Shown here: in pieces, positions 6,973 through 41,467 of the stretch
Layout: every line of letters begins with the position of its first letter
Numbering within the stretch: the first letter of the stretch is position 1
NCBI GenBank assembly: GCA_950059285.1
Contig: CATLTV010000012.1
Coordinates: forward strand, 1-49,690
DNA length: 49,690 bases
Source: an uncultured Pseudomonadota bacterium
GTDB lineage: Bacteria > Myxococcota_A > Bradymonadia > Bradymonadales > Bradymonadaceae
Reading direction: 5' to 3'
Notes under the pieces: model-generated
The model's database searches: none
Seen by the model: only the letters and a program-made list of their open reading frames with translations
What the model was told of the DNA's origin: nothing
Program-made: the position numbers and the translations under genes

Positions 6973-8187
6973 TTAACCTTCTCGTGATGACGAGATAAGA
7001 TAGACGCTATCTTCGCTTCCACACCAGGCCATGAGATCGCTTAAACCTTTGATCCATTTGGGTAAAAGGTTATCTCTGTCCTCTGTTCTTTCGCTGTGAA
7101 CCAGAATAAGTTCCTGAGACTGTTCAAGCGCTACCACGCGTGTGGTGCCACGGCGTTTTTTAAAGCGTTGCAAGAGCTCAAGCAGCGTGTCTCCCGTGTC
7201 AGGGACAGGCATCACCACCACACCACCTTTTTTACCCATCAGATGATCGAGGTGATCGCACACAGCCTGAAGGTCTGTGCCTTCCTCACTTCCCACGAGC
7301 ACCACGTCACGCTTCTTTTTGCGATCCAGGCTGTCAAGGCTTGAGGCCTTGATTTGCTCGGTTTTAAGCGCCTTTGAGAGCTTTTCTGTCTGGTGCAGTG
7401 ATACGCGATTGAACCTCTCACTGGCTCGCGACTGCGCTGACTTCTTGGTGGCACCTGAAGCTTTTGATGCCTTGCGTGTGCTTGTGTCCTGAACGCGGCC
7501 ATCGTTGCCGATGCGCTCCTCAGCAACCTCGATATCACCTTGATGTTCAAGCTCTTTTCTTAACTTTGATACGGTGGGGGCGCTCACCGAGCAGAGCTCA
7601 GCGACCTTACGATCCGAGTAACGAACCCACTCGCTGTCCTGGAGCGCACGCATCACAGCAAGTCGTTTATCCTCGTTGGTACGACGCAATCCGTGCTTTG
7701 CGTTGACGCCAAGCGATAGACGAATGGCGTCTCTGAGCTCGCCGCGCTTCAAATCAACCTGAAACTTGTTCAGGCCAGCCTTACGCGCTGCGCGCATTCT
7801 GTGGAAACCATCAGCGAGCCACTTTCGTTTACCATCATCAAAGACAACCAGCGCAGGCCATGGCTCACCGTCCTGGTCAAGGACCAGTCCGCTGACAGGC
7901 TCCAGTGTCATTCTTTCGGCATAGTCCTCAAGCGCATCCACATTGAATTCCACACGCGATTGTGTGCCACCGTCCACGGACAAATCGGACAGCTCAATCA
8001 GGTCCCACGCCGTATGTGCCCTTCGGGTACGCGCCTGCGGCGCATGTCCTGCGCTGTTGGTGAGCGTCTTATCGATGCTCGCAGGTTTGCTTGCTGCATC
8101 TGCGGCAAAACCACTGGATCGTCGCTGCCTTGCAGGGCGAGGATGACTGGTCTGGGACTTCTTCTTCAAAAACTTTTTGCTGCTCAT
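6973..8187 (-). CDS. parB: ParB family partition protein
   Basis: This is a 404-residue protein with a ParB/sulfiredoxin-like N-terminal domain at about residues 62-165. Its signature GKRKWLADGFHRMRAARKAG is the variant of the GERRxRA-type box seen in plasmid-type ParBs. A helix-turn-helix follows (YSDRKVAELCSVSAPTVSKL, about 195-215), then a basic linker and a C-terminal domain of unknown fold. The N-terminal 50 residues are basic and low in complexity. Its start codon overlaps the parA stop as ATGA, so the two are translationally coupled. It should bind a centromere-like parS site and load on DNA with CTP by family knowledge. I could not identify parS. The divergence from chromosomal Spo0J-type ParB supports a secondary replicon. 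Confidence 0.85.
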   Translation of the reverse strand: MSSKKFLKKKSQTSHPRPARQRRSSGFAADAASKPASIDKTLTNSAGHAPQARTRRAHTAWDLIELSDLSVDGGTQSRVEFNVDALEDYAERMTLEPVSGLVLDQDGEPWPALVVFDDGKRKWLADGFHRMRAARKAGLNKFQVDLKRGELRDAIRLSLGVNAKHGLRRTNEDKRLAVMRALQDSEWVRYSDRKVAELCSVSAPTVSKLRKELEHQGDIEVAEERIGNDGRVQDTSTRKASKASGATKKSAQSRASERFNRVSLHQTEKLSKALKTEQIKASSLDSLDRKKKRDVVLVGSEEGTDLQAVCDHLDHLMGKKGGVVVMPVPDTGDTLLELLQRFKKRRGTTRVVALEQSQELILVHSERTEDRDNLLPKWIKGLSDLMAWCGSEDSVYLISSSREG

Positions 8188-9368
8188 GCTATCTCCTCTT
8201 GCTCATCGTCATCCTGTGTTACACCAAGCTCAACCTCGTAGAGACGGGTCATGAGCTCATCACAAAGCGCTGAAAACGCACGCGAACCTGCGCTTTGTGA
8301 CTGGTACACAGAGACGGGCTCTTGAGCCGCATAAGCCTCTGCAATCGAGATGTTTTTCGGAATACTCATTGTCGTGGGTCGCGCATAATAACGCTCCCTT
8401 AATTCACGCATCATCTCGCGGGCAAGCACGGTGTTTTCGTCAAAGCAAGGGAGGCTTGCAAGGACCCTGCACATCGGGTTGAGCTCACGAAGTTCATCCA
8501 CAGTGGAGATCATACGATCAAGTCCGTTGATCGCCGCCTGATGAAGCTGCACGGGGAACAGCAGGTGTGTCGCCGCCACGATTGCATTCTTCTGCAACAC
8601 GCCAAGCGTGGGCTGACAATCAATCAGGATCATGTCATATTCAGGCATCACATCATGCAACAGTTTACGCAACACGGTGCTGGAGACGGCAAACGAAGAG
8701 ATGCGCTCGGCTGCCTCTTCAAGCTCTTCACCACTTGGCATCAAATCAAAGCCAAAGGGCGTGCGCCAGATATCAAGATCAAGACCTGCCTGTGCTTCAG
8801 CTCCTCCTTTTTTCAGGGTGCGCACAGCATCCACATAATGCTCGGCGTTAATCTGGCCGCCCACATGAATGGTGGCATCCGCCTGCGGATCAAGATCCAC
8901 AAGCAACACAGCATGTCCCTTCTTGGCAAACTCATACGCGAGGTTCACTGAACATGTTGTCTTGCCCGTCCCACCTTTCTGAGAGGCCACCGCAAAGACA
9001 AGCGCCTGTTCACCAAAGACACCCGAGCGCTGCAAGGGGAAGAACTCAACGTTTTCCTCCTCATCAAACTCTTCCTCGTCATCCTGCACATGTGCGGGGC
9101 TGACCCTGTCAAGAATGCCCGCCATGCGCATCGCATGACTACAGGCATCTTCCAGTGTAAGACCAAAGTACTCGGCCTGGCTCTGATAATGGTCCGCTTT
9201 CTTGACCTCACCTCTCCAAACCTTGGATATCGTGGCGCGATCAATCTCAAGCGCCTCTGCGAGCATATCCTGTGTAAGCTGCTCACGCGTGGCGAGTGAG
9301 CGCAGTAAATCCCCCAACGCAATACGTTGTTTTTTATTAAGTTTCATATATTTAGCCTTCCTTGGCAT
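8184..9368 (-). CDS. parA: ParA partition ATPase with N-terminal helix-turn-helix
   Basis: This is a 394-residue ParA. The deviant Walker A motif KGGTGKTT lies at 131-138 and the A' segment DLDPQAD at about 158-164; a DCQPTLG switch follows. Before the ATPase there is an XRE-like helix-turn-helix (about 30-52, LTQDMLAEALEIDRATISKV) and an acidic linker (96-106). This arrangement is typical of type Ia plasmid ParAs, which repress their own operon. The ATG at 9368 has AAGGAG only three bases away; an ATG at 9347 (MKLNKK) has GGAAGG eight bases upstream and may be the true start. parB overlaps its end. The inverted TGTACAGGA boxes upstream may be its operator. Confidence 0.92.
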   Translation of the reverse strand: MPRKAKYMKLNKKQRIALGDLLRSLATREQLTQDMLAEALEIDRATISKVWRGEVKKADHYQSQAEYFGLTLEDACSHAMRMAGILDRVSPAHVQDDEEEFDEEENVEFFPLQRSGVFGEQALVFAVASQKGGTGKTTCSVNLAYEFAKKGHAVLLVDLDPQADATIHVGGQINAEHYVDAVRTLKKGGAEAQAGLDLDIWRTPFGFDLMPSGEELEEAAERISSFAVSSTVLRKLLHDVMPEYDMILIDCQPTLGVLQKNAIVAATHLLFPVQLHQAAINGLDRMISTVDELRELNPMCRVLASLPCFDENTVLAREMMRELRERYYARPTTMSIPKNISIAEAYAAQEPVSVYQSQSAGSRAFSALCDELMTRLYEVELGVTQDDDEQEEIA

Positions 9369-12084: not shown

Positions 12085-12140
12085 ACAGGTGAGAGCAGAG
12101 GTCAAGAAAACTTGTTTTTTTGACCTCTGCTCTCACCTGT
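12085..12140. terminator. 56-bp palindrome with one wobble
   Basis: Two 27-base arms pair around a 2-base centre with a single G-T wobble. It includes a T6 tract. It lies upstream of ltaE and about 220 bases past the small gene at 12363-12650, whose transcript it may end. Confidence 0.75.
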
Positions 12141-12777: not shown

Positions 12778-12845
12778 AAGATAGCAAATTAAAAAGAGAG
12801 CGCGGCGGTTACAACCGCCGCGCTCTCTTTTTAATTTGCTATCTT
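12778..12845. terminator. 68-bp palindrome running into the end of rep
   Basis: Two 33-base arms are perfectly complementary around a 2-base centre (12811-12812). The right arm includes the rep stop codon and its last four sense codons, so coding sequence is mirrored in the intergenic arm. It is placed as a terminator of rep. Confidence 0.85.
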
Positions 12846-14633
12846 TGGCAACATCTTGAGCTGAGTTTGTCCAAATACCACGCCAAGTTTGGCATCTTTC
12901 AAGGCATCCATCGTCGTGGTCAGCTCAGGATCAAGCTCATCACAGCGCCAGCTACACAGGAGTCCAATTTCAACCATCCTGTCCAGCGCCACATTAAACG
13001 TCTCCTTCAAGCGATCCACGCGTGGACTGGTTTGTTCCATGCCAGACCAGTCATACAGCGTCCAGAGGTTCAACTCAAATTCACCCGTGCCGCTCACGCG
13101 ATCGTTGTACGCCCTGTTCACAAGCGTCCAGTAAATGTTGAACGCCACACTGGAACGTTCATCCAGCTTGAATGCACGATCATCAAGCATCATAAACGCG
13201 GGCGCACCACCCTCCTCACGAGAGAGCGTCATTTGCCACAACGTGTCATCAATGGACCAGGACTGGAAGGTGTGTTTCTCACTCATCCCTTCACGGTTCT
13301 CGATCTCAAGCTCAATCTCGGCCTGACGAAGTTCGATCAACGGACCCTTGCGCTTGATACGCATCTTTCTGCCCTGCTCATCGTAGCCTGTTGCTGAACG
13401 GTGTAATATCAATTTTGTCAACAACTTACGCACATGCTGTACACGCTGTCTATGCTTGTAATTATCAGGGTTAAACCCAACAATCTTGCACAAACGCTTG
13501 CCACTGTCCGTATCCCAAAACGTACCATGCGCGGAACCAAATAAGATCCTGTCGCGATGTGCCGCAGCAAACATCCCTGCACATACACGTGGCAAGTGCT
13601 CAAACACACCAGGATCCACATCAAGTTGTTCGATGGCCTGGGTCAATGCACCAAGGACATCCGTTTGCGGCGAGTTTAACTTCACCGAAATAAAACTATC
13701 GGGCTCTCCGCTCGATTTATTCACCAGGTGTGTGTCAAAAAAGAGCGCTTGCTGACCATTCTCCTCTTCAAGCACCTTGACGCGTGCTCGATCCAGATTG
13801 GCCTTGATAAGTTTGCGGTCATCATCAGCATGAAGATCGCCCTCACGCGCAATGAAGAACTGACGAATATTATTGGATTCACGCGGCAAACTGTACAACG
13901 GCTTCATCGGCACCGCCGTAAAGTCGCGGCGCGTCAATTCTCGCGTCAGCTCTCGCCGGAGGTCATCCAGCGTGTGACCAATCCAGCTTGATGGATCTCC
14001 ATGAAGCTTTTTGGCAGGTGCCGTATACAGCGCAATCACAGCAGCCAACTTGTTTAATTCATTGCCTTTTTGAATCAAATTGAAGACAATAGGTTCACGT
14101 ACACGTTGAAGATAGGCGTCGCGATCAAGGCGCACAAAGCCAGCTTCTTCAAGTTGCTTCTGTGTATGCAAAGATCGGCGGATCTCCTCGGACTGAAAAA
14201 AGGAGCCCGAGGGGTGCCACCAGGGTTGATCCGACTGTAGCTGATATTCCTGTGCGATTTCACACAGATGATGCCATCCGATAAAGTCATCAAGCTGTTC
14301 AATAATCAGCTCCATGGCCGATTCTCGACGATCCGATTGCTTGCGATTGGAGAGTGACAATCTCCTGAGCAGCTCGACACGTGAGCCCACACGTTGACCG
14401 AGCTCTTCATCAGTGTCATTCATCAGACCACCTGGCAGATCACGCAGGAAGCTGAACACAATGTTCGTATTGGAACGTTGCTTTTTGGGGTATGAAAGAT
14501 CACGTAAAATGCCAGGATCACTCATGATCTTTGACATACACTTACGTGTATCCCGAACCAGCTCGCGCTGTTTCCAATCCTCCGGCCACTCCCCTGGAGA
14601 TGCTATCAGTTGACGATAATACGCCTCGTGCAT
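12831..14633 (-). CDS. Probable iteron-binding replication initiator (Rep)
   Basis: This 600-residue protein is not close to a Rep family I can name. The C-terminal third (about 430-580) looks like a winged helix of the RepA/TrfA type: a LNLWTLYDWSGM segment, then a helix with RVDRLKETFNVALDRMVEIG and a final LLCSWRCDELD strand. A basic stretch (MRIKRKG) and several helices lie before it. The ATG at 14633 has a perfect AAGGAGGA site seven bases upstream, so it is preferred to the ATG at 14660, which lies before that site. The gene points away from a 15-copy iteron array beginning 527 bases upstream and lies near parAB. The role as initiator is inferred mainly from this context. Confidence 0.72.
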   Translation of the reverse strand: MHEAYYRQLIASPGEWPEDWKQRELVRDTRKCMSKIMSDPGILRDLSYPKKQRSNTNIVFSFLRDLPGGLMNDTDEELGQRVGSRVELLRRLSLSNRKQSDRRESAMELIIEQLDDFIGWHHLCEIAQEYQLQSDQPWWHPSGSFFQSEEIRRSLHTQKQLEEAGFVRLDRDAYLQRVREPIVFNLIQKGNELNKLAAVIALYTAPAKKLHGDPSSWIGHTLDDLRRELTRELTRRDFTAVPMKPLYSLPRESNNIRQFFIAREGDLHADDDRKLIKANLDRARVKVLEEENGQQALFFDTHLVNKSSGEPDSFISVKLNSPQTDVLGALTQAIEQLDVDPGVFEHLPRVCAGMFAAAHRDRILFGSAHGTFWDTDSGKRLCKIVGFNPDNYKHRQRVQHVRKLLTKLILHRSATGYDEQGRKMRIKRKGPLIELRQAEIELEIENREGMSEKHTFQSWSIDDTLWQMTLSREEGGAPAFMMLDDRAFKLDERSSVAFNIYWTLVNRAYNDRVSGTGEFELNLWTLYDWSGMEQTSPRVDRLKETFNVALDRMVEIGLLCSWRCDELDPELTTTMDALKDAKLGVVFGQTQLKMLPKIAN

Positions 14634-14976
14634 GGCTTGATCCTCCTTGGATTTAGTCATTAAAACAGGCGCTTGAGCGCAGTTTTTCGCTCATGTTCAA
14701 AAGCTTAACACAAACGTAAACAACGCCAAAACAAAGACGCCTGAATCAATTACACGAGTACCATGACTGGACTTGCACGCAGAACAAACACAACAAGGAA
14801 ACACTCAAATGGGCGTTTCTTGAAAAATCACGTGCAACATGTGTTATTTATTCCAACGGCAGCGTGTCACATGGAGTTTCAAAAAACGAGCATCGATCCA
14901 GAGGTTCCTGATGCGAATCACGACTGCTGACCTGTATGTTAGATGTTTTCTATCATTCGACAACAGTGAATTTTTG

Positions 14977-15075
14977 CGCATGGATGCGCGAGCTGCTTTC
15001 TTAAAAAAGCAGCTCGCGCGCCATGCGCGCTTTCTTAAAAAGATCCCCTAAGGGGGATCTTCTAAGAAAGATCTA
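14977..15075. promoter_or_regulatory. Cluster of imperfect hairpins between rep and the iterons
   Basis: A first imperfect inverted repeat (about 14977-15030) pairs GCGCGAGCTGCTT with AAGCAGCTCGCGC around an A-rich loop. A second (about 15031-15071) pairs TTTCTTA-AAGATCCCC with GGGGATCTT-TAAGAAA with small bulges. They lie 340-440 bases upstream of rep. They could be terminators of an antisense transcript or structural parts of the origin. Confidence 0.55.
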
Positions 15076-15159
15076 CTCTCCAAAATCACGAGACGAAAAA
15101 TAATGCTTCATACCATTGATTTTTATTATGTTTTCGACTCAATCTAACCAAATGTAAGG

Positions 15160-15860
15160 TGACAAAACGTGGCGGGAAATCTGGATCTGGTGACAAAACG
15201 TGGCGGGAAATCTGGATCTGGTGACAAAACGTGGCGGGAAATCTGGATCCGATGACAAAACGTGGCGGGAAATCTGGATCGTTGTAACGGTTTCATGACA
15301 AAACGTGGCGGGAAATCTGTATTCTTGTAGGTGCTCATGACAAAACGTGGCGGGAAATCTGTATTCTTGTAGGTGCTCATGACAGAACGTGGCGGGAAAT
15401 CTGTATTCTTGTGGGCACTCATGACAGAACGTGGCGGGAAATCTGTATTCTTGTGGGCACTCATGACAAAACGTGGCGGGAAATCTGTATTCTTGCGCGT
15501 GCTCGTGACAAAACGTGGTGGGAAATCTGTATTCTTGCAGGTGTTCATGACAGAACGTGGCGGGAAATCTGTATTCTTGTAGGTGTTCATGACAAAACGT
15601 GGTGGGAAATCTGTATTCTTGCAGGTAAAAAAAACGAACAAATTTTTGAGCAGGTGGGTGTGACCCTCGTTATGATCGAAAAACGATCATGGAATGTGAT
15701 CATGGCGAGATCTGATCAGGGGATCGTGATGACAAAACGTGGCGGGAAATCTGGATCGCATACAAGGCTGATGACAAAACGTGGCGGGAAATCTGGATCG
15801 TTTTCCCATGTCTACAGCAATGTCATGACAAAACGTGGCGGAAAATCTGTATTCTTGTAG
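15160..15860 (+). repeat. Array of 15 iterons, candidate replication origin
   Basis: A 24-base core, TGACAAAACGTGGCGGGAAA plus TCTG, recurs in the same direction at 15160, 15191, 15222, 15253, 15296, 15338, 15380, 15422, 15464, 15506, 15548, 15590, 15730, 15772 and 15826. Steps are 31 bases for the first group and 42 or 43 for the second, close to three and four helical turns. Cores are followed by GGATC (copies 1-4, 13, 14) or TATTCTTG (copies 5-12, 15). Few substitutions occur: GACAGAACG in copies 7, 8 and 11, GGTGGG in copies 10 and 12. An open frame on the minus strand is a by-product of the 42-base step. The array resembles the iterons of Rep-controlled replicons and may also control copy number. 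Confidence 0.88.
15673..15725. promoter_or_regulatory. GATC cluster inside the iteron region
   Basis: Six GATC sites (15674, 15685, 15698, 15709, 15714, 15722) lie within 52 bases, in the gap between iterons 12 and 13. TGATCG-AAAAA-CGATCA forms a small hairpin at 15673-15689. Such clustering is seen in origins timed by Dam methylation, for example those of P1 and Vibrio chromosome II. Methylation control here is inference. Confidence 0.6.
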
Positions 15861-15866
15861 GGCCTG

Positions 15867-15893
15867 TTAATATTTTAATTTTACATAATACAT
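15867..15893. other. AT-rich tract next to the iterons
   Basis: Twenty-five of 27 bases are A or T directly after the last iteron, a candidate unwinding element. A loose DnaA-box-like sequence (TGTGAATAC, 7 of 9 bases) follows at 15928-15936. Confidence 0.5.
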
Positions 15894-17082: not shown

Positions 17083-17487
17083 TCAAGCAGCCCAGAGAAA
17101 GTGGTGCTCATCTTCCTCCTCGGGCATTGGACGGCAAAAGCCGTGGCGTTCTCCTGATGCGCTGCCTCGTGGCAAGCACTCTTCTCGGATTGAAATTTCG
17201 CACAGGTCCAGTTGTGTGGAGCATATGCCAAGGATCTTATCCATGGTACCATCCTTGCTCCAGCGGACCCATCGATCGTAGATGGTTTGCCAGGGGCCAA
17301 ATTCTTCTGGCATTTGACGCCAGGGTTGGTTGGAGTTCAGAGCCCAGAAGATACCTTCAAGGATCTGACGATGACTTCTCCATGGGCGACCGCGACGACG
17401 TTGACGTTCCTTGGGAAAGAGTGGGGCGAGCTGTTGCCATTCTGTCTCAGAAACAGTGATCTTAAAGTCCCTTGTGGTGGTGGACAT
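17083..17487 (-). pseudogene. Truncated IS5-family transposase, N-terminal part
   Basis: The 134-residue frame begins with the DUF4096-type N-terminal domain of IS5 transposases: SETEWQQLAPLFPKE, then GRPWRSHRQILEGIFWAL, NQPWRQMPEEFGPWQTIYDR and WVRWSKDGTMDKIL. Full transposases need a following DDE domain of about 150 residues or more, which is absent. After residue 90 the sequence drifts from the family, so it looks like a relic with a degenerate or frameshifted continuation. No flanking terminal repeats could be recognised. A domesticated DNA-binding protein is possible but less likely. Confidence 0.75.
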
Positions 17488-40735: not shown

Positions 40736-41467
40736 TTATGCGAGGTTATGGAAAACCTTCTGCACATCATCATCGCCTTCAAGACGACTGATAAGTTCAA
40801 GCACCTCGTTGGCCTGCTCTTCTTCAAGCTCAATGGTCGTGGTGGGAATGTACTCGGGATCAGCTGACACAGGTTCAAGCTTTCTTGTCTCAAGTGCTTC
40901 CTGCATCGTACCAAAGTCTGTGAAGCCTGTGTGAATGATAATCAGGTCTTCGCCGTCTTCTCCTTTGCCTTCGCCCATTTCTTCAAGGCCAAAGTCAATC
41001 AGGTCAAGTTCAAGCTCTTCAAGATCCTGGCTGATGTCTTCGCGTTTGATCTTGAACACGCCCATGCGTTCAAACAGGTAGCTCACGCTGCCCGAGTTCC
41101 CCATGTTACCGCCGCCCTTGTTGAAGTGAACGCGTACATTGGTGACGGTACGTGTGGGGTTGTCTGTGGCGCTCTCCACCAGCACGGCGATGCCATGAGG
41201 TGCGTAACCTTCATAGACAAGCTCCTGGTAATCATCGCTGTCATCGGCACCCATGGCGCGTTTGATCGCAGCTTGCACGCGATCCTTTGGCATGTTGCAT
41301 GCTTTTGCCGAGAGCAAGGCGCGACGCAGTGCAGGGTTAAAGTCTGGGTTTGGGCCACCCTGCTTTACTGCAATGACAATCTGGCGTCCCACACGTGTGA
41401 AGGCTTTGGCCATACGATCGTAGCGCGCAAACATGGTCGCTTTTCGCGTCTCGAAGATGCGTCCCAT
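40736..41467 (-). CDS. YebC/PmpR family protein
   Basis: This is a 243-residue protein of the TACO1/YebC family. It starts [20 protein letters not shown], a variant of the usual N-terminus, then [34 protein letters not shown] and the core [18 protein letters not shown] with [19 protein letters not shown], all diagnostic. Members act as transcription regulators or relieve ribosome stalling at proline stretches. The ATG at 41467 has GAGGAG seven bases upstream, so the longer frame to 41551 is discarded. It is a single gene ended by the 72-bp palindrome. Confidence 0.94.

Follow-up and report, generated by a model that had tools for sequence, protein, structure and literature searches.

The locus described here is very probably the origin of replication of an iteron-controlled secondary replicon, either a large plasmid or a chromid, in a bacterium of the phylum Myxococcota. 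The best reading of our findings is that a new RctB-like initiator/iteron family drives several co-resident secondary replicons in this organism. The case is built on the sequence anatomy of the locus, the conservation of that anatomy at 11 loci, a GC-skew minimum at the origin and the RctB-like fold predicted for the initiator. The window, by which we mean the whole stretch of DNA analyzed, is one entire contig of 49,690 bp (C12) belonging to a 6.65-Mb assembly of 441 contigs that is 95% complete, and the comparisons made below rest on this one MAG and one relative.

The probable origin region and its replicon

The iteron array lies upstream of rep at 15160-15849 and consists of 15 copies of the 24-base core TGACARAACGTGGYGGGAAATCTG, all on the plus strand; 14 of the copies are exact, and the fifteenth, which starts at 15826, has one base changed. 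Outside the array, the core has zero occurrences in the rest of the assembly and in 38 relatives. The distances between successive iterons are, in order, 31, 31, 31, 43, seven times 42, 140, 42 and 54 bp, and TRF resolved the array as two, with periods of 31 bp and 42 bp. Iterons 1-4 (15160-15276), proximal to the putative DNA unwinding element (DUE), have the 31-bp spacing with a GATC after each, and iterons 5-12 (15296-15613), of the TGTATTC type, have the 42-bp spacing. Iterons 13-15 (15730-15849) complete the array, the last of them carrying the core base change. Inside the array is also the densest GATC cluster of the contig (15675-15726), where a stretch of 80 bp starting at 15685 holds six GATC, as compared to three in the next densest. 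The region between rep and the array (14986-15076) encodes a GC-rich hairpin, GCGCGAGCTGC..GCAGCTCGCGC, at 14986-15019, and a DUE-like AT-rich block at 15030-15076, which in its minus-strand reading is made up of the repeats CTTAGAAGATCCCC / CTTAGGGGATC / TTTAAGAAAG, of the TAGA type also seen in the other origins. An AT-rich spacer (15077-15159) leads from these DUE-like repeats to the first iteron, and the AT-rich tract as a whole, on the side of the array that faces rep, extends over approximately 15030-15156. A first-pass annotation of this DNA had described the 24-base core repeated 15 times in one direction, the GATC cluster and the AT-rich tract, together with a protein of about 600 residues and parAB genes 3.5 kb away, and all of these were borne out: the protein has 609 residues, and 3.46 kb separate the start of ParA from the end of rep.

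The same annotation had taken this combination as marking an origin, and the skew of the contig agrees with that placement. The cumulative GC-skew minimum falls at 15149, at the edge of the array, in the spacer that separates the first iteron from the AT-rich block, and shuffling 1-kb blocks yielded a minimum as deep in 0/1000 trials. The skew is negative over the left 14 kb and changes sign at the array, the right 34 kb being for the most part positive, as is typical of a bidirectional origin that is in use. As positive skew persists up to near the right end, the C12 replicon is probably larger than the contig; there is no second skew switch within the contig, so that the replicon size is a lower bound only, and a search for an overlap between the contig ends, as a sign of circularity, returned none. 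On the other Rep-encoding contigs of the same genome, the skew minimum of C43 is 1.7 kb from its array, the skews of C7 and C74 are compatible with an origin at the Rep locus, and those of C2 and C155 have no switch at their origins.

The partition genes are both on the minus strand. The gene for ParA, a partition ATPase with an N-terminal helix-turn-helix, occupies 8184-9368, its start being 5.8 kb from the first iteron, and overlaps by 4 bp the gene for a ParB-like partner (6973-8187), which has homologs on other Rep contigs. At least eight of the 12 Rep contigs carry par genes (C12, C43, C74 and C2 of this genome; C20, C154, C152 and C229 of G007, the relative from a second genus). The GC content of C12 is 50.1%, and its tetranucleotide correlation with other contigs (r 0.89-0.97) is host-like, which argues against binned foreign DNA, C155 being perhaps an exception. 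The window further holds the sole yebC of the assembly (40739-41464), with orthologs (64-67%) in two relatives, one of them a single-contig genome, and a full dnaA is located on another contig of the same assembly, its C152. A chromid is expected to combine a plasmid-type replication and partition system with a base composition near that of the chromosome, and here we find rep, iterons and parAB on a contig of such composition. Given the par genes, the host-like composition and the presence of dnaA elsewhere, the C12 replicon is likely chromid-like. No tRNA genes were found on the six Rep contigs of the genome, and the best G007 homolog of the C12 yebC is also on a Rep contig, C229.

Some further features of the window can be recorded here. 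There is a perfect 33-bp inverted repeat at 12778-12845 and a near-perfect 27-bp one at 12085-12140, both at gene ends, which are probably bidirectional terminators. An ORF at 17083-17487, 1.2 kb past the array, resembles by eye the start of an IS5-type transposase.

The putative initiator and its predicted fold

The rep gene (12831-14660, minus strand) encodes a putative initiator of an undescribed family. The first-pass annotation could not assign the protein to a named family, and indeed searches of Pfam, PHROGs and NCBIfam gave chance matches only, with no Pfam match at E <= 1. There were zero matches to PLSDB plasmids by tblastn and zero to viral contigs, and a Rep profile run against PDB sequences found nothing meaningful. 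The idea of a new replicon type in this phylum is thus supported, in that there is no family or PLSDB match and the relatives of Rep are confined to two genera of one family. We also considered a Rep_3 initiator and rejected it, as PF01051 is absent from Rep and from the whole genome.

The structure of Rep was modeled with AlphaFold2 from an alignment of seven sequences, with the Rep paralogs of the same genome left out. The full-length model had a pLDDT of 68, and the model of the conserved core (residues 236-609) a pLDDT of 79 and a pTM of 0.85, which amounts to moderate confidence. In the core model the C-terminal half has a winged-helix-like order of helices and strands, in agreement with what had been read from the sequence at first pass. 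When the models were compared to the PDB with Foldseek, the sole significant match was 5tbf_B, domains 2-3 of RctB, the initiator of Vibrio chromosome 2 (E 3.4e-4 for full-length Rep and 6e-5 for the core; probability 1.00; TM 0.50 on the target); the next-best matches had E values of 0.69 and 0.08 with low probability. The predicted fold is therefore not one unrelated to initiators. We then have to ask whether Rep belongs to the RctB family itself. When ten real proteins of the RctB family were combined into a profile and this was aligned with the Rep profile by hhalign, no homology was found (probability 0.1), and the sequence domains RctB_central (PF11826) and HTH_55 (PF18622) were absent from Rep in Pfam at E <= 1. 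For this comparison the RctB family alignment consisted of database-record sequences only, and the RctB query agreed with PDB 5tbf and 5ubf at every residue of the aligned stretch. Because the fold matches RctB domains 2-3 but the profiles are without homology, we describe Rep as resembling RctB in its predicted fold, yet do not place it in the RctB family. An uncharacterized 584-aa protein of Myoviridae sp. ctrEx11, A0A8S5V5R6, matches the fold of Rep as well (E 2.8e-6, probability 1.00) and is a possible phage relative of the initiator.

Twelve Rep loci and their probable origins

Six Reps are encoded in the assembly, of which those not on C12 are 37-45% identical to that of C12, and six further Reps are found in G007, which belongs to the same family. 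Rep was found in 0 other genomes among 57 sampled from the class and 379 sampled from the phylum. A repeat array lies beside rep at 11 of the 12 loci, across the two genera, and its iteron sequence differs at each; in the genome under study, this applies to five of the six initiators. At the twelfth locus, C7, rep lies where the contig ends, and C155, which encodes the sister of this Rep, has its array on that same downstream side. The 11 arrays have 7-18 copies, in a single direction with one exception, and the iterons are spaced mostly by 31-33, 41-43, 53-56 or 63-68 bp, phased near 10.6 bp. Within this genome, the spacing nearest the DUE is ~31 bp, and farther off most iterons are at least 42 bp apart. 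C12, C2 and C43 have iterons with a common GATCCA at one end and a common ACGT at position 18 of 28-29, while the middle varies.

The order of elements is constant: the array is followed by a spacer of ~70-120 bp, then by AT-rich TAGA-type repeats of ~13-14 bp, GCGCG and the GC-rich hairpin. The orientation of the iterons towards the DUE is likewise constant, and the position and side of rep vary. Next to the arrays, TAGA is present 31 times in the forward and 6 times in the reverse orientation, shuffles giving 12.1 +/- 3.1; C155 has TTAGTTAA repeats where the others have TAGA. The hairpin was scored at eight of the 11 loci, where it starts 115-146 bp from the proximal iteron, and was recognized by eye in C43 and in C37 of G007. 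A GATC cluster is found by the array at six loci, namely the window and five of the six G007 loci. Near the C155 origin there is also a perfect 8-bp tandem, ATAACGTT, in eight copies (L031, 8119-8184), with more copies at 1512 and 4816 of the same locus.

DnaA boxes are common in iteron origins and their absence is unusual, although we do not regard it as decisive. At ten of the 11 origins no exact DnaA box (TTWTNCACA) was found, and no Dam-type methylase of PF02086 was found in the 95%-complete assembly; consequently, neither dependence of these origins on DnaA nor Dam control of the GATC cluster is supported.

Comparing the trees of the different genes brought out an unexpected discord. In the Rep tree, the six Reps of this genome fall on one side of a branch and the six of G007 on the other, with support of 100/100. 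The ParA proteins of C74 (L029, 5899-7014) and G007 C20 (L035, 2687-3946) are, in contrast, sisters with 64% identity and support of 98/97, while the Reps of these two contigs are only 28% identical and sit in different clades. A grouping of ParA by genome was rejected (p-AU 2e-9), in a tree that has long branches. An amidohydrolase/deacylase at 293-2152 of the window, present as a single copy in the genome, has one counterpart in G007, 74% identical and located on the Rep contig C46, and a globin-like ORF, 57% identical, lies beside the origin or rep in both C2 (L058, 9339-9881) and G007 C229 (L034, 5713-6501). Since the Reps cluster by genome while ParA and neighboring genes pair across genera, the rep/origin modules group, as judged from their sequences, by genome, and the other genes by replicon. 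This discord could be due to a separate radiation of the Reps in each genome, to conversion among them or to an exchange of par modules. We put forward tentatively, as an idea slightly less likely than not, that the genome of this lineage is divided among seven or more co-resident replicons, and that paralogous RctB-like initiators, each with its own iteron sequence, run six of these. If true, initiators would radiate, convert or replace one another within a genome while the replicons persist.

Proposed mode of action, alternatives and known systems

It can be hypothesized how such an origin would work. In the most likely course of events, monomers of Rep would attach to the helically phased 28-bp iterons and melt the AT-rich repeats of the TAGA type adjoining the array, where the host helicase would be loaded; the adjacent GC-rich hairpin may act as a boundary or as a single-strand entry site. 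ParAB would segregate the replicon copies. Copy number could be controlled by titration and pairing of iterons, and the replicons would remain independent of each other through their different iteron sequences.

The array could instead be a centromere, that is, a parS array bound by ParB, with the 609-aa protein as a regulator and the origin elsewhere. The contig also carries parAB, ParB proteins are capable of binding to arrays of repeats, and in the Myxococcus plasmid pMF1 centromere repeats are spread between the replication region and par (PMC3235114). We consider this very unlikely, as the arrays adjoin rep and not parAB at 11 of 11 loci, ParA in the window is well removed from the array, the adjoining TAGA repeats, hairpin and skew minimum are features of an origin, and the predicted fold of the protein resembles that of an initiator. 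Unlikely, too, is that the locus is a degenerate or integrated plasmid origin within the main chromosome, real by descent and now silent. The contig is not closed, has a chromosome-like composition and carries chromosomal-type genes such as yebC, all of which would fit such an origin; the intact rep frame, the 15 near-perfect iterons, the par genes alongside and a change in the sign of the skew right at the array, such as an origin still in use would be expected to show, point the other way. That the array is the main chromosomal oriC, with Rep replacing DnaA, is hardly credible: the locus has the features of an origin, and parAB lies nearby, as at many chromosomal origins, but a full DnaA gene is present on another contig, the genome has five sister Rep loci besides this one and Rep is missing from 37 sampled relatives.

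The origin of an iteron-controlled secondary replicon thus being the preferred interpretation, the closest known systems include RctB with ori2 of the second chromosome of the Vibrionaceae, along with plasmids that encode RctB-domain proteins (PF11826, PF18622). The initiators are of similar size (609 aa here, 658 aa for RctB), and, like ori2 (PMC6090056), the C12 origin has head-to-tail phased iterons, GATC sites and an AT-rich region beside the initiator gene. The two systems differ in phylum, in the iterons (28 bp here, Dam-methylated and 12 bp in the RctB system), and in that Rep has neither PF11826/PF18622 nor profile homology. DnaA dependence and Dam control are features of Vibrio ori2 (PMC6090056), in contrast to the rarity of exact DnaA boxes at the present origins and the lack of a PF02086 methylase in the assembly. 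Rep_3 plasmids (F RepE, R6K pi, P1 RepA) are alike in having direct-repeat iterons, an AT-rich region and an adjoining initiator, here predicted, of the winged-helix type; unlike them, Rep has no Rep_3 match, neither in sequence nor among the fold matches listed, and is about twice as long. Plasmid pMF1 of Myxococcus fulvus, from the same phylum, carries a par system of its own, and its replication gene is an orphan (PMC3235114).

The RctB-domain proteins that we found in PLSDB were limited to Vibrionales plus two further genera of the gammaproteobacteria, and iteron chromids are assigned by a review to the beta and gamma classes (PMC6090056). If another phylum has an RctB-like initiator that shares no sequence homology with RctB, the fold and this design of origin would reach to a separate lineage of secondary replicons. 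The six initiator/array pairs in one cell would be a natural set for seeing how initiator and iteron change together and stay orthogonal, and the 11 diverged origins, through the anatomy that they have conserved, indicate what is fixed in an origin of the iteron type. As a single autonomous plasmid was known in myxobacteria in 2011 (PMC3235114), the origin module may also serve as a genetic tool in that group.
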